This document shows positions 59,893 to 64,000 of a DNA stretch of 64,000 nt, piece after piece. Positions within the stretch are counted from its first letter, which is position 1, and each line of letters starts with the position of its first letter. Both the position numbers and the translations under genes were made by a program. This stretch comes from Poseidonibacter lekithochrous (GTDB lineage Bacteria > Campylobacterota > Campylobacteria > Campylobacterales > Arcobacteraceae): positions 1 through 64,000 of the forward strand of contig NZ_JAHKQT010000038.1 of assembly GCF_018861145.1 (NCBI RefSeq), written 5' to 3'. Below the pieces are notes generated by a model. It saw nothing but the letters and a program-made list of their open reading frames with translations. It did not search any database and was not told the DNA's origin.

Positions 59893-60231
59893 TTAAACAG
59901 CCCCTAATATATAATAAATAGGTTTTTTATCTAATTGTTGAAGTTTTACATTGTATTTATCTGCCCAGTGTGAAACTTCATTATGAAATTCTTTTAATAT
60001 TGCATCTGCATCATTTTCATCACATTTAATTTTTAAGTAATCTGTTTTATTTGATAATCCTACATACGCATTCATTTTTTTTAAATGATCATTTAATGAA
60101 AAAATGTGTTTTGAAAATTTATCAAAATTATCAGTAGATGAAATCATTTTTTCGGCTTGTTGTAATGAAGAATCGCTTTTTGAATAACCAAGTTGAGATA
60201 ATATTACTTCAGGTGATACATTAATTTGCAT
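59893..60231 (-). CDS. Conserved-looking hypothetical protein, 112 aa
   Basis: Soluble, helical, MQINVSPEVILSQLGYSKSD, then acidic and Lys-rich segments, ending KKPIYYILGAV. No signal peptide, no motif I recognise. It is expressed away from its neighbours (AAGGAA upstream of its ATG). Confidence 0.6.
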   Translation of the reverse strand: MQINVSPEVILSQLGYSKSDSSLQQAEKMISSTDNFDKFSKHIFSLNDHLKKMNAYVGLSNKTDYLKIKCDENDADAILKEFHNEVSHWADKYNVKLQQLDKKPIYYILGAV

Positions 60232-60371
60232 TTATTTTCCTTTTTTTTTAATTCATCATATTATCAAATCTTTTTTAAATAATAGTTGAATTTTTAGATT
60301 AAAATGTATAGACTTTTTTTATGTTTACAGATAAAATAAGATTAATATTAAATAGATAATTATGGAGATTA

Positions 60372-62384
60372 ATGAACAAGATTTTATTTTTACTAATTTT
60401 TTTTACGCAGAGCTTTTTATTTTCAAAACAAATTGATTTAACAGAAGTAGAAAAAAAGTATTTAGAGAATAAAAAATCATTAAATCTATGTATTGACCCT
60501 TCTTGGATGCCTTATGAAAAAATTGAAAATGGCAAGCATATAGGAATGACAGCTGACTATATAAAACTTTTAGAAAAAAACATTCAAACAGAAATAAAAT
60601 TAGTAAAAACAAATACTTGGAGTCAATCTTTAGAATATGGAAAACAAAGAAAATGTGATATTTTTTCTTTAATAATGAAAATACCTTCACGAGAAGTTTA
60701 CTTAGATTTTACAAAACCCTATTTTGATATTCCTTTAGTTGTAAGTACACAAATAGATGAATTATTTATAAGGGATATTACATCTTTAAATAATAAAAAT
60801 ATAGGTATTGTAAAAGATTATGCTTATGCAGAAATTATTAAAGAAAAATATCCCAAAATAAATCTAATATATGTAGATAATATGGAAGTAGGGCTTGAAA
60901 AACTAGTAAAAGGTGAATATTTTGGATTTATAGGTACTTTATATACATTAGGATACCAAATACAAAAAGAATTTTTAGGAAAACTAAAAATTGCAGGAAA
61001 ATTTGATGAAAAGTGGGAGTTAGGAATTGCAAGTAGAAATGATGAACCTTTATTAAAATCTATATTCGAAAAAGCTATATTGTCAATTCCGAAAGAAGAA
61101 AAACAAGAAATTTTAAATAAATGGCTTTCTATTAAGTTTGAAAAGAATTATTTTACTTCAATGCTGGGTATTCTCTTTTTCTCAATCTTAATTATATCTA
61201 TAATACTTTTAATAAATAAAAAACTAAGTAGCGAAATAAAAAAAAGAAAAGAAGCTGAAAAACTTTTAAAACTTACAATTACAAGTGCTAATTTAGGAGT
61301 ATGGAGTTGGCATTCTAATACAAATAAAAATGAGATTAATGATATTTGGGCTTTGATTTTGGGCTATTCAAAAGAAGAGATAGAAGAAGGCTTAGATTTC
61401 TTTAGTTTTGTTCATAAAGAAGATATTATAAAATTAGATAAAGCCTTGGAAAAGCATGATAAAGATGAAAAGAACCAATATCAATGTGAATTTAGAATGC
61501 GCTGTAAAGATGGCAGTTATAAGTGGATATATAGTAATGGAAAAATCGTATCTCGGGATGAGAATGGAAAGCCTTCTTTAATAGTAGGAATTCATCAAGA
61601 TATAAATGATCGTAAAATATTAGAATTAGAAGTATTTAAACAAAAAGATTTATTTATTCAACAATCTAGACAAGCTGCAATGGGTGAAATGTTAGAGAAT
61701 ATTGCACATCAATGGCGTCAACCATTATCGGTTATTACTACAGTAGCAAGTGGTTTAAAAATTACAAAAGAGCTAAATACCCTTACGAATGAAGATATAG
61801 ATTATTCTATGGATAGGATTATAAGAAGTGGAATGTATTTATCTCAAACTATAGATGATTTTAGAGGTTTTTTAAATAAAGATAAAATTAAGACAAATGT
61901 TAATATCAAAAAAGTTATTGAGAACTCAACATATTTTTATAAAACTCAATTTGATAATGAAGAAATAGATTTAGTGTTAAATATTGATGATTGTATTATT
62001 AATAGTTATGAAAATGAATTACTTCAATGTATACTAAATATTATTAGTAATAGTGTAGATGCTTTAAGTACTTTTGATAATAAAAAGAAATGTATCATAA
62101 TAGATATTTATAAGGAAGGTAAATCTTGTATTATTTCTATTAAAGATAATGCAAGAGGTATTAAAGAAGAAAATTTATTAAAAATATTTGAGCCTTATTT
62201 TACAACAAAACATAAATCACAAGGAACAGGAATAGGCTTATATATGAGTCATGAAATTATCACTAAACATTTACATGGTAAAATTGAAGTTGAAAATGTA
62301 AGTTTTAAATACCTAAATGAAGAATCACGGGGTGCTTGCTTTAAGATTATATTACCTAAAGATGTTGAAGATATACTAGAATAA
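60372..62384 (+). CDS. Sensor histidine kinase with SBP_bac_3 and PAS domains
   Basis: 670 aa. Signal peptide (KILFLLIFFTQSFLFS), one SBP_bac_3 domain (~20-255; CIDPSWMPYEKIENGKHIGM, closely like the second domain of the kinase at 8089-10563), one membrane helix (~260-280), a PAS/PAC unit (~295-420; CKDGSYKWIYSNGKIV and VGIHQDINDRK), the H-box ENIAHQWRQPLSVITT and an ATPase with IKDNARGIKEEN and GTGIGLYMSHE. The usual NAGG of the G1 region is NARG. GGAG precedes the ATG. The 3' end overlaps rnhB by 9 nt on the opposite strand. Confidence 0.92.
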   Translation: MNKILFLLIFFTQSFLFSKQIDLTEVEKKYLENKKSLNLCIDPSWMPYEKIENGKHIGMTADYIKLLEKNIQTEIKLVKTNTWSQSLEYGKQRKCDIFSLIMKIPSREVYLDFTKPYFDIPLVVSTQIDELFIRDITSLNNKNIGIVKDYAYAEIIKEKYPKINLIYVDNMEVGLEKLVKGEYFGFIGTLYTLGYQIQKEFLGKLKIAGKFDEKWELGIASRNDEPLLKSIFEKAILSIPKEEKQEILNKWLSIKFEKNYFTSMLGILFFSILIISIILLINKKLSSEIKKRKEAEKLLKLTITSANLGVWSWHSNTNKNEINDIWALILGYSKEEIEEGLDFFSFVHKEDIIKLDKALEKHDKDEKNQYQCEFRMRCKDGSYKWIYSNGKIVSRDENGKPSLIVGIHQDINDRKILELEVFKQKDLFIQQSRQAAMGEMLENIAHQWRQPLSVITTVASGLKITKELNTLTNEDIDYSMDRIIRSGMYLSQTIDDFRGFLNKDKIKTNVNIKKVIENSTYFYKTQFDNEEIDLVLNIDDCIINSYENELLQCILNIISNSVDALSTFDNKKKCIIIDIYKEGKSCIISIKDNARGIKEENLLKIFEPYFTTKHKSQGTGIGLYMSHEIITKHLHGKIEVENVSFKYLNEESRGACFKIILPKDVEDILE

Positions 62385-62948
62385 ACTTTTTTGTATACCT
62401 TGAATATCTTCATCTAAAGCTTTTAATCTGAAAGTATATCTATGCTCATCACATCTTCCATGCTCTTTTATAAGTTCAACATGAGCTTTTGTTCCATAAC
62501 CTTTATGTTTATGGAAATTATATAAAGGATAATTCTCTGATATTTCACACATATATCTATCTCTACTTACTTTTGCCAGTATAGAAGCGGCACTTACTTC
62601 AGCAACTGTTGCATCTGCTTTTATCTTATGTTGTAATGTTTGTATTCCAAAAGAAGTGTTTCCGTCCATTAAAAATTCATTGGCATTTTTTTTAAGATTA
62701 AACATAATTTCTGTAATGGAGTTTTTTAAACATGCACTTAAACCTTTTTCATCTATAGTTTTAGCATCTGTAAATACAATATGATAAAAAGAATTTTCAA
62801 TAATTAAAGGAAATAGAGCTTCTCTTTTTTTTTCACTTAAAATTTTTGAGTCATTTAACCCTTTTATTTCCTTGTTAATTACTACACCAGCTACAACTAA
62901 AGGACCCGCTATTGGACCTCTTCCTGCTTCATCAATTCCACATAACAT
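62376..62948 (-). CDS. rnhB: Ribonuclease HII
   Basis: 190 aa from ATG 62948 (MLCGIDEAGRGPIAGPLVVA). DEAGRG carries the first two active-site acids; a further Asp is in FLMDGN and another in AAASILAKVSRDRYM-type AASILAKVSRDRY. It removes ribonucleotides from RNA/DNA hybrids. The upstream in-frame extension overlaps the clpB promoter and is not real coding. Confidence 0.95.
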   Translation of the reverse strand: MLCGIDEAGRGPIAGPLVVAGVVINKEIKGLNDSKILSEKKREALFPLIIENSFYHIVFTDAKTIDEKGLSACLKNSITEIMFNLKKNANEFLMDGNTSFGIQTLQHKIKADATVAEVSAASILAKVSRDRYMCEISENYPLYNFHKHKGYGTKAHVELIKEHGRCDEHRYTFRLKALDEDIQGIQKSLF

Positions 62949-63000
62949 ATAATGCCTTTTACTTTTTTTTATTATAACATTTGAATTTATATAAAAAACA

Positions 63001-63031
63001 CTTGACAAACATACACTCAAGGTGCTATAAT
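63001..63031 (+). promoter_or_regulatory. clpB promoter with HAIR-like (HspR) operator
   Basis: -35 TTGACA (63002-63007) and -10 TATAAT (63026-63031), 18-nt spacer. CTTGACA (63001-63007), seven bases, ACTCAAG (63015-63021) matches HAIR (CTTGAGT-N7-ACTCAAG) in 12 of 14 positions and covers the -35 box and spacer, as expected for HspR repression of clpB. Confidence 0.75.
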
Positions 63032-63035
63032 TTTA

Positions 63036-63062
63036 TTAGCAGTTAAACATAAGGAGTGCTAA
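63036..63062 (+). promoter_or_regulatory. CIRCE element (HrcA operator) before clpB
   Basis: TTAGCAGTT (63036-63044), nine bases, GAGTGCTAA (63054-63062). The consensus is TTAGCACTC-N9-GAGTGCTAA: the right arm is perfect and the left arm matches in 7 of 9. It begins 5 nt after the -10 box, contains the Shine-Dalgarno AAGGAG and ends at the base before the start codon. Confidence 0.85.
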
Positions 63063-64000
63063 ATGAATAAAATTTTTGAAAAACTAACAAACCAATTATC
63101 TGAGACAATTGATTCAGGTGTTGCATTATCATTACATAATAAGAATCAAGAAGTAGAAGTTATACATCTTTTATGGGCTTTATTAACAAATACAAATTCG
63201 GTTTTAAACCAATTATTAAATAAAATGAATATAGACAAAGCCGCTATAGTTTTAGAAGCAAAATCATATGCGCAAAAGTTACCTGTGGTTTCATCTGTAA
63301 CTAAAGAAAATATTAAAATATCAAGAAATCTAGCTCAAAGTTTAGAAAAAGCACAAGGACAAGCAGCAAAACTTGGTGATAAGTTTATAGCAATTGATTC
63401 ATGGCTTATTGCGAACTTTGATACACCAGAGTTAAAAGAAGTTTTAGGAAAGTATATAGATTTAAGAGAAGCAGCAAAAGAACTTGAAGCTATGAGAGCA
63501 GGAAGTACTATTGATTCTGCTAGTGCTGATGAAAACTTAGAAGCTTTAGGGAAATATGGAATTGATTTAAATAAAATGGCTATTGATGGAGAATTAGATC
63601 CAGTAATAGGACGTGATGAACAAATCAATAGAATGATGCAAATTCTAATAAGAAAGACAAAAAATAATCCAATTTTATTAGGAGAACCAGGTACTGGTAA
63701 AACAGCAATTGCTGAAGGACTTGCTCAAAGAATTGTAAATAAAGAAGTACCAACTTCATTAATGAATAAAAAAGTAATTACACTTGATATGAGTGCATTA
63801 ATAGCAGGTGCAAAATATAGAGGTGAATTTGAAGATAGATTGAAATCTGTAATAGATGAAGTAAAAAAAGATGGAAATATAATTTTATTTATTGATGAAA
63901 TTCATACAATAATAGGTGCAGGGGCTTCTGAAGGTTCTATGGATGCAGCAAATATTTTAAAACCAAGTCTAGCACGTGGTGAGTTACACACTATTGGTGC
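63063..64000 (+). CDS. clpB: ATP-dependent chaperone ClpB, N-terminal part (runs off the window)
   Basis: The first 312 residues. N-terminal Clp repeat domain (~1-150; [19 protein letters not shown]), then the first AAA+ module: [25 protein letters not shown], Walker [30 protein letters not shown] (pore loop region) and Walker [16 protein letters not shown]. It disaggregates proteins together with DnaK. Start ATG 63063 with AAGGAG upstream. Control by both HspR and HrcA is indicated by the two operators. Confidence 0.97.

Follow-up and report, generated by a model that had tools for sequence, protein, structure and literature searches.

The region upstream of clpB in Poseidonibacter lekithochrous (Arcobacteraceae, Campylobacterota) contains two inverted repeats, one resembling the HAIR operator of the repressor HspR and the other the CIRCE operator of the repressor HrcA. 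This raises the question whether both heat-shock repressors act on one and the same promoter, or whether one of the repeats has a different origin or function. According to the available part of PMC12131804, clpB of Campylobacter jejuni is "regulated solely by HspR", and the statement in the original prediction that Campylobacter clpB is an HspR target agrees with what is accessible of PMC7464140 and PMC12131804. Both sources, as far as available, describe HspR and HrcA of Helicobacter pylori as independent binders, while in C. jejuni the two proteins interact, and their binding to the gro promoter is cooperative (PMC7464140, accessible part). A CIRCE before clpB has been described in Mollicutes (PMC4245973 and PMC5138195, in the sections available). 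In a literature search by titles and beginnings of abstracts, with subscription journals mostly uncovered, we found no description of dual clpB control in Arcobacteraceae.

In this study, the locus was compared with clpB, hrcA, groES, htpG and cbpA promoters of the family and of the order, and with the presence of the repressor genes. From these comparisons we consider it probable that clpB is jointly repressed by HspR and HrcA at a composite heat-shock promoter.

Sequences and criteria

The window is the whole stretch of DNA analysed, with a length of 64,000 nucleotides. For CIRCE, the consensus TTAGCACTC-N9-GAGTGCTAA with at most two mismatches was used, the same rule as in the accessible parts of PMC4245973 and PMC5138195. 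For HAIR, the consensus CTTGAGT-N7-ACTCAAG was taken as quoted in the available text of PMC7464140. At clpB, a HAIR was called with at least 6 of 7 matches in the left arm and at least 5 of 7 in the right arm. Among 104 family genomes, the clpB promoter was readable in 94; of the other ten, seven gave no match on search and three (G005, G031, G097) were outside the clpB search. Promoters of hrcA were read in 86 of the 104 genomes, most of the remaining 18 being outside the hrcA search. For groES and htpG, selections of 32 and 31 genomes were searched, giving 30 loci each. Where a genome had two promoters of one gene (G025 and G071 for clpB), one row was kept.

Promoter and putative operators upstream of clpB

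The features of the locus are compiled in Table 1. The clpB start codon begins at position 63063 of the forward strand, and the divergent neighbour is a gene for ribonuclease HII. Within the window, 312 amino acids of ClpB are encoded, and the match of this partial protein to TIGR03346 is for that reason below the whole-protein cut-off. The closest named relative of the ClpB N-terminus is that of Poseidonibacter ostreae (96% over 180 aa), with further Arcobacteraceae among the relatives.

Table 1. Features of the clpB upstream region, with positions in the window
Feature	Position	Strand	Remarks
HAIR-like HspR operator (putative), CTTGACA-N7-ACTCAAG	63001–63021 (arms 63001–63007 and 63015–63021)	+	12/14 match
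−35 hexamer TTGACA	63002–63007	+	perfect; within HAIR left arm
−10 hexamer TATAAT	63026–63031	+	spacer 18; TG ahead of hexamer
CIRCE-like HrcA operator (putative), TTAGCAGTT-N9-GAGTGCTAA	63036–63062 (left arm 63036–63044, right arm 63054–63062)	+	16/18 match
Predicted transcription start	63038	+	first purine about 7 nt past −10
Shine-Dalgarno sequence AAGGAG	63051–63056	+	last CIRCE spacer bases and first right-arm bases
clpB, 5′ part	63063–64000	+	continues beyond window end; TIGR03346 ClpB, 1.8e-105

The two hexamers form a sigma-70 promoter, TTGACA-N18-TATAAT, that matches at 12 of 12 positions (63002–63031). The final base of the CIRCE lies directly 5′ of the ATG. If transcription starts about 7 nt past the −10 hexamer, all 25 nt of the predicted leader (63038–63062) are CIRCE sequence, and the Shine-Dalgarno sequence of the clpB transcript coincides with the CIRCE right arm. 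The original prediction of a HAIR-like repeat with 12/14 matches over the −35 region and a CIRCE with 16/18 matches over the ribosome binding site was accurate in sequence and position. Its suggestion that a CIRCE reaching the start codon could block translation initiation on DNA is unsound, as a DNA-bound repressor leaves the site on the mRNA uncovered.

The two repeats differ in what their mere occurrence says. With up to three mismatches allowed, the window contains a single CIRCE, where 0.03 would be expected by chance. For the HAIR, a slightly relaxed pattern with up to three mismatches gave 29 matches in the window against 30.9 expected, and 101 genome-wide against 93 for reversed-pattern controls; by count alone, a HAIR-like match is not significant and uninformative. 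With up to two mismatches, the HAIR was found at six places in the genome; only those before cbpA-hspR and clpB are in promoters, and the other four are inside open reading frames. The clpB HAIR is convincing because of its position in the promoter and its conservation across the family.

Repressor genes and further putative operators in the genome

Both repressors are encoded in the genome. HspR was identified with NF047375 (115.6 bits, cut-off 105) and is encoded in a cbpA-hspR pair with a HAIR of its own. HrcA has 263 aa, and its gene adjoins grpE on contig C11. The protein matches NF003033 (1.3e-69; 234.8 bits, just below the cut-off of 248), its first 85 residues are matched by TIGR00331, and it is similar to the solved HrcA 1stz (1.2e-10). 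With the Pfam model PF01628, no HrcA match was obtained in the whole genome; this is a gap of the model, because the hrcA gene adjoins the CIRCE on C11. Surveys based on Pfam may overlook HrcA in Arcobacteraceae (here hrcA at G000:C11, L004 1548–2339).

Genome-wide, only four CIRCE matches with up to three mismatches were found, before groES (C40), clpB, hrcA-grpE (C11) and htpG (C9), with none for reversed-pattern controls. The hrcA promoter has a layout like that of clpB, namely CTTGACA-N7-ACTCAAT, TATAAT and TTAGCAGTT-N9-GAGTGCTAA. The htpG CIRCE (G000:C9:128803–128829; L003 1501–1527) is situated between htpG and a DoxX-like gene that diverges from it. Among 30 family loci, 28 have a CIRCE with at least 14/18 matches ahead of htpG, the two exceptions being from g6, and htpG is probably an HrcA target here. 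Before cbpA, a HAIR of the form [CG]TTGATT-N7-[AG]CTCAA[GC] has at least 11/14 matches in 19 of 20 genomes assessed (exception G056), a 21st genome cut by a contig end being left out. At groES, a weak HAIR-like repeat is located about 54 nt upstream of the CIRCE, with at least 9/14 matches in 19 of 22 genomes with hspR and 1 of 6 without, and resembles the upstream placement of HspR at C. jejuni gro. A third composite promoter of HAIR, −10 and CIRCE occurs in one genome (G099:C11:60875 onward; L299/L358) after a 64-aa zinc-ribbon open reading frame. It faces a stretch with no evident gene, followed by a convergent gene, and gave no Rfam match at gathering cut-offs; it may be a relic or may drive a heat-shock RNA.

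Conservation in the Arcobacteraceae and in the order

A CIRCE with at least 14/18 matches precedes clpB in 92 of the 94 family genomes read, and Arcobacteraceae loci collected from ClpB relatives have the pair of HAIR and CIRCE at clpB in nearly all cases. The left arm TTAGCA[GA]TT is kept in most family genomes and is common to clpB and hrcA promoters. Loss of the left arm in relatives, which the original prediction had named as evidence against a functional site, is not what was found, since the arm is conserved in its off-consensus form. A composite pattern of HAIR, −10 and CIRCE, which requires the HAIR, TTAGCA and AGTGC and thus selects composites, was present in 82 of the 104 family genomes, in many cases at two places, with none for reversed controls. 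As the pattern selects composites, protein-based searches were added in the comparison of HAIR and hspR. With HspR as query, a match was obtained in 90 of the 104 family genomes and none in 14, where absence means no tblastn-type match in assemblies that are mostly drafts. By genus code, the 14 are 4 of 4 genomes of g6, 7 of 8 of g8, 2 of 3 of g9 and a g2 genome with a completeness of 54%.

Of 268 genomes from the order that lie outside the family, 26 have the composite (51 of 298 overall, including 25 of 30 family members drawn). Twenty outside composites from 19 of these 26 genomes were located before hrcA (14), groES (4) and clpB (1), with one unplaced. Among 34 usable clpB loci taken as outside the family (L041–L076 without the family-like L049 and L055, which has no upstream sequence), a hand count gave a HAIR with CTTGACA and at least 10/14 matches in 28 and a CIRCE with at least 14/18 matches in 2. 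Judged from these loci, the composite is widespread at hrcA and the HAIR is widespread at clpB, and Arcobacteraceae are characterised by the CIRCE at clpB.

The left half-site of the CIRCE

In the window, the left arm of the clpB CIRCE is off consensus at bases 7 and 9. Base 7 was scored in the CIRCE nearest the start codon in 255 promoters of clpB, hrcA, groES and htpG. It is not C in 162 of 175 sites coupled to a HAIR and in 1 of 80 uncoupled sites, counts that come from related genomes and not from independent events; grouped by gene and genus, the figures are 46 of 53 and 1 of 40. Within the family, clpB has a base other than C at this position in 72 of 81 coupled and 0 of 11 uncoupled sites, and hrcA in 73 of 75 and 1 of 11; the sites of groES (0/28) and htpG (0/28) are all uncoupled. 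Outside the family, it is not C in coupled sites of hrcA (12/14), groES (4/4) and clpB (1/1), and it is C in both uncoupled groES sites (0/2). The sole uncoupled exception is hrcA of G089, whose HAIR is just under the threshold. Conversely, C is found at base 7 in 13 of the 175 coupled sites, of which nine belong to clpB. Because the deviation follows coupling in this way, the left arm is not simply decayed.

At clpB, the Shine-Dalgarno sequence enters as a second factor. In an AGGAG and distance tally, which preceded the base-7 recount with the nearest CIRCE and used the distal CIRCE for some hrcA rows, AGGAG crosses the junction of CIRCE spacer and right arm in 72 of 72 clpB sites with a CIRCE at most 6 nt from the ATG and in 0 of 21 others. 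Base 7 differs from C in all 72 ATG-abutting clpB CIRCEs vs 1 of 21 non-abutting ones, and coupled clpB CIRCEs farther from the ATG have C in 9 of 10 cases.

This pattern would also be expected if control were exerted on the RNA level, by a CIRCE hairpin in the leader that covers the Shine-Dalgarno sequence, with the left arm off consensus to avoid locking it; in a stronger form, the hairpin would act as a thermometer. Fold predictions fit in so far as the leader of the window reaches −4.0 kcal/mol vs −9.5 kcal/mol with a consensus left arm substituted. A CIRCE near the Shine-Dalgarno sequence reportedly affects mRNA stability in Bacillus subtilis, which would speak for such control as well. 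However, the deviation is also found where no start codon is near, in 77 of 81 coupled hrcA sites distant from the ATG and in 4 of 4 groES composites of another family, 35–46 nt from the ATG, whereas two HAIR-less hrcA sites abutting the ATG have a consensus inner arm. Moreover, the hairpin is predicted to open only slightly at temperatures up to 47 °C; in the one predicted leader, two Shine-Dalgarno bases are paired, with unpaired probabilities of 0.2–0.27 at this temperature. A search of positions 60000–64000 against Rfam gave no match, which also counts against control on the RNA level. Taken together, we regard this explanation as unlikely.

A left arm off consensus at two bases could instead mark a relic that no longer binds HrcA, the right arm being kept as Shine-Dalgarno sequence (the overlap exists in 72/72 abutting clpB sites) and clpB being in effect controlled by HspR only, as described for C. 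jejuni in the available parts of PMC7464140 and PMC12131804. Several findings make this rather improbable: ribosome binding does not require TTAGCA[GA]TT, yet most family genomes have kept it, and it occurs in the hrcA promoter too; the GTGCTAA part of the right arm goes beyond what a Shine-Dalgarno sequence needs; and in genomes without hspR, all 11 clpB sites that have a CIRCE show a consensus inner arm.

For the off-consensus base 7, coupling to HspR is favoured by these comparisons, and at clpB the overlap with the Shine-Dalgarno sequence would add a second constraint. Coupling fits the hrcA and groES promoters and the clpB promoters of genomes without hspR, and the overlap fits clpB. As sole cause, neither suffices, since the Shine-Dalgarno overlap fails for the hrcA and groES composites and HspR fails for nine clpB composites of g9, g12, g13 and g19. 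Tandem CIRCE-like repeats before hrcA were observed at L147–L149, L151, L152, L154, L155 and at loci of g10, g3 and g19, both in g8 genomes without hspR and in several genera with hspR. A second CIRCE before hrcA as compensation for missing hspR was rejected, as 20 of 75 HAIR-coupled family hrcA promoters also have a second match.

Co-occurrence of the HAIR with hspR

At clpB, a HAIR was called in 81 of 82 genomes with hspR vs 0 of 12 without (Fisher 2.7e-14), a value that is descriptive and carries no evolutionary significance, as the genomes are related. At hrcA, the corresponding numbers are 74 of 77 and 1 of 9. The two arms behave differently. An exact TTGACA is present in 9 of 12 clpB promoters of genomes without hspR (all those of g8 and g9 read). 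The right-arm slot has 0–4 of 7 matches in genomes without hspR and 5–7 of 7 in all 82 rows with hspR, under a best-window rule that is slightly generous for G043. By this comparison, the left arm doubles as −35 hexamer with or without HspR, and the right arm follows HspR.

All 12 clpB rows without hspR fall in one clade of 18, and the absences therefore represent few independent events. The best tree needs five changes of hspR and four of the clpB HAIR, and only two independent pairs are available on starred branches, of which one agrees and one does not differ. In G043, an hspR match and a HAIR before its cbpA were found but no HAIR at clpB, in an assembly with 7% contamination; its cbpA-hspR pair is at L338 (G043:C212), and the sister genome G047 has no hspR match. 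G043 represents either contamination or an intermediate state. G052 is without an hspR match, yet its hrcA HAIR is kept, and G089 and G073 have hspR and are below the hrcA HAIR threshold. In two g6 genomes where hspR was not found, G038 and G037 (L128, L129), the clpB promoter contains no HAIR and no CIRCE, and the gene may escape control by the two repressors.

It is very improbable that the HAIR-like repeat is only a −35 hexamer with a chance right half and clpB is under HrcA alone: the perfect −35 in the left arm, its retention without hspR and the chance-level number of HAIR-like matches in window and genome would allow it, but the dependence of the right arm on hspR and the CTTGACA-containing HAIR at clpB in most loci outside the family speak against it. 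Equally improbable is an origin of the clpB promoter by copying of that of hrcA, with features in common through recent duplication instead of selection for two operators, since, despite the same order, HAIR-to-CIRCE spacing (33–35 nt) and left arms, clpB spacers agree at 7.2 of 16 positions with their own hrcA, 6.8 with hrcA of other genera and 9.1 with clpB of other genera (68 genomes), and a HAIR unaccompanied by a CIRCE also occurs at clpB outside the family. The spacer comparison disfavours a recent copy; an ancient one would be compatible with it.

Proposed regulation of clpB

In joint repression by HspR and HrcA, HspR bound to the HAIR across the −35 hexamer and promoter spacer would block RNA polymerase at the −35, and HrcA bound to the CIRCE across transcription start and leader would block the start site. 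Both repressors would hold clpB expression low until heat or unfolded protein inactivates them, and weakening of either one by heat would loosen repression. The dual HspR/HrcA control proposed originally is well supported by the comparisons, as the genome encodes HspR as well as HrcA, each of the two sites is conserved, and genomes without hspR lack the right arm of the HAIR. The original interpretation as a whole is supported in part.

The HAIR may be the older element at clpB, because it is seen elsewhere in the order. The CIRCE would have been gained in or near Arcobacteraceae, with its right arm built on the Shine-Dalgarno sequence AAGGAG, and through this gain, clpB and the hrcA-grpE operon would have come to share their two repressors. 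The off-consensus left half-site could make the CIRCE a weaker HrcA operator that leans on adjacent HspR by cooperative binding. Extending this, HAIR-coupled CIRCEs might form a distinct operator class in which a weak HrcA half-site is held by HspR as a joint gate, and the HspR-less operator works alone with a consensus inner arm; we put this forward tentatively, as a possibility that falls somewhat short of even chances.

As in C. jejuni, where the accessible parts of PMC7464140 and PMC12131804 place the HspR site of clpB over the core promoter, the putative HspR site overlaps the core promoter here; HrcA control of clpB is not reported in those parts, whereas in P. lekithochrous a CIRCE covers start site and leader. 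Two repressors per chaperone promoter, with HrcA at the start and HspR upstream, are likewise described for groESL and hrcA-grpE-dnaK of C. jejuni and H. pylori (PMC7464140 and PMC6032397, as available). In contrast to these promoters, the target here is clpB. Its putative HspR site lies on the −35, whereas theirs is placed upstream of the core promoter; in its CIRCE, the left half-site departs from the consensus and the right arm provides the Shine-Dalgarno sequence. Mollicutes clpB also has an HrcA operator, but belongs to a different phylum, and the available text on it describes no HspR partner site.

Implications

The results suggest that clpB, and probably also htpG, is under HrcA control throughout a family of Campylobacterota. 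HspR and HrcA regulation, whose overlap is known from groESL and the hrcA operon, would thus coincide more widely here than in C. jejuni. With the Shine-Dalgarno sequence inside the operator, the same bases would serve a DNA-binding protein and the ribosome. The genomes without hspR, in which clpB has no HspR site and its HrcA site follows the consensus, lend themselves to a comparison that addresses the mutual dependence of the two repressors. If HAIR-coupled CIRCEs are indeed a distinct class, the clade without hspR would be a natural experiment in which a two-repressor promoter turns into a one-repressor promoter.
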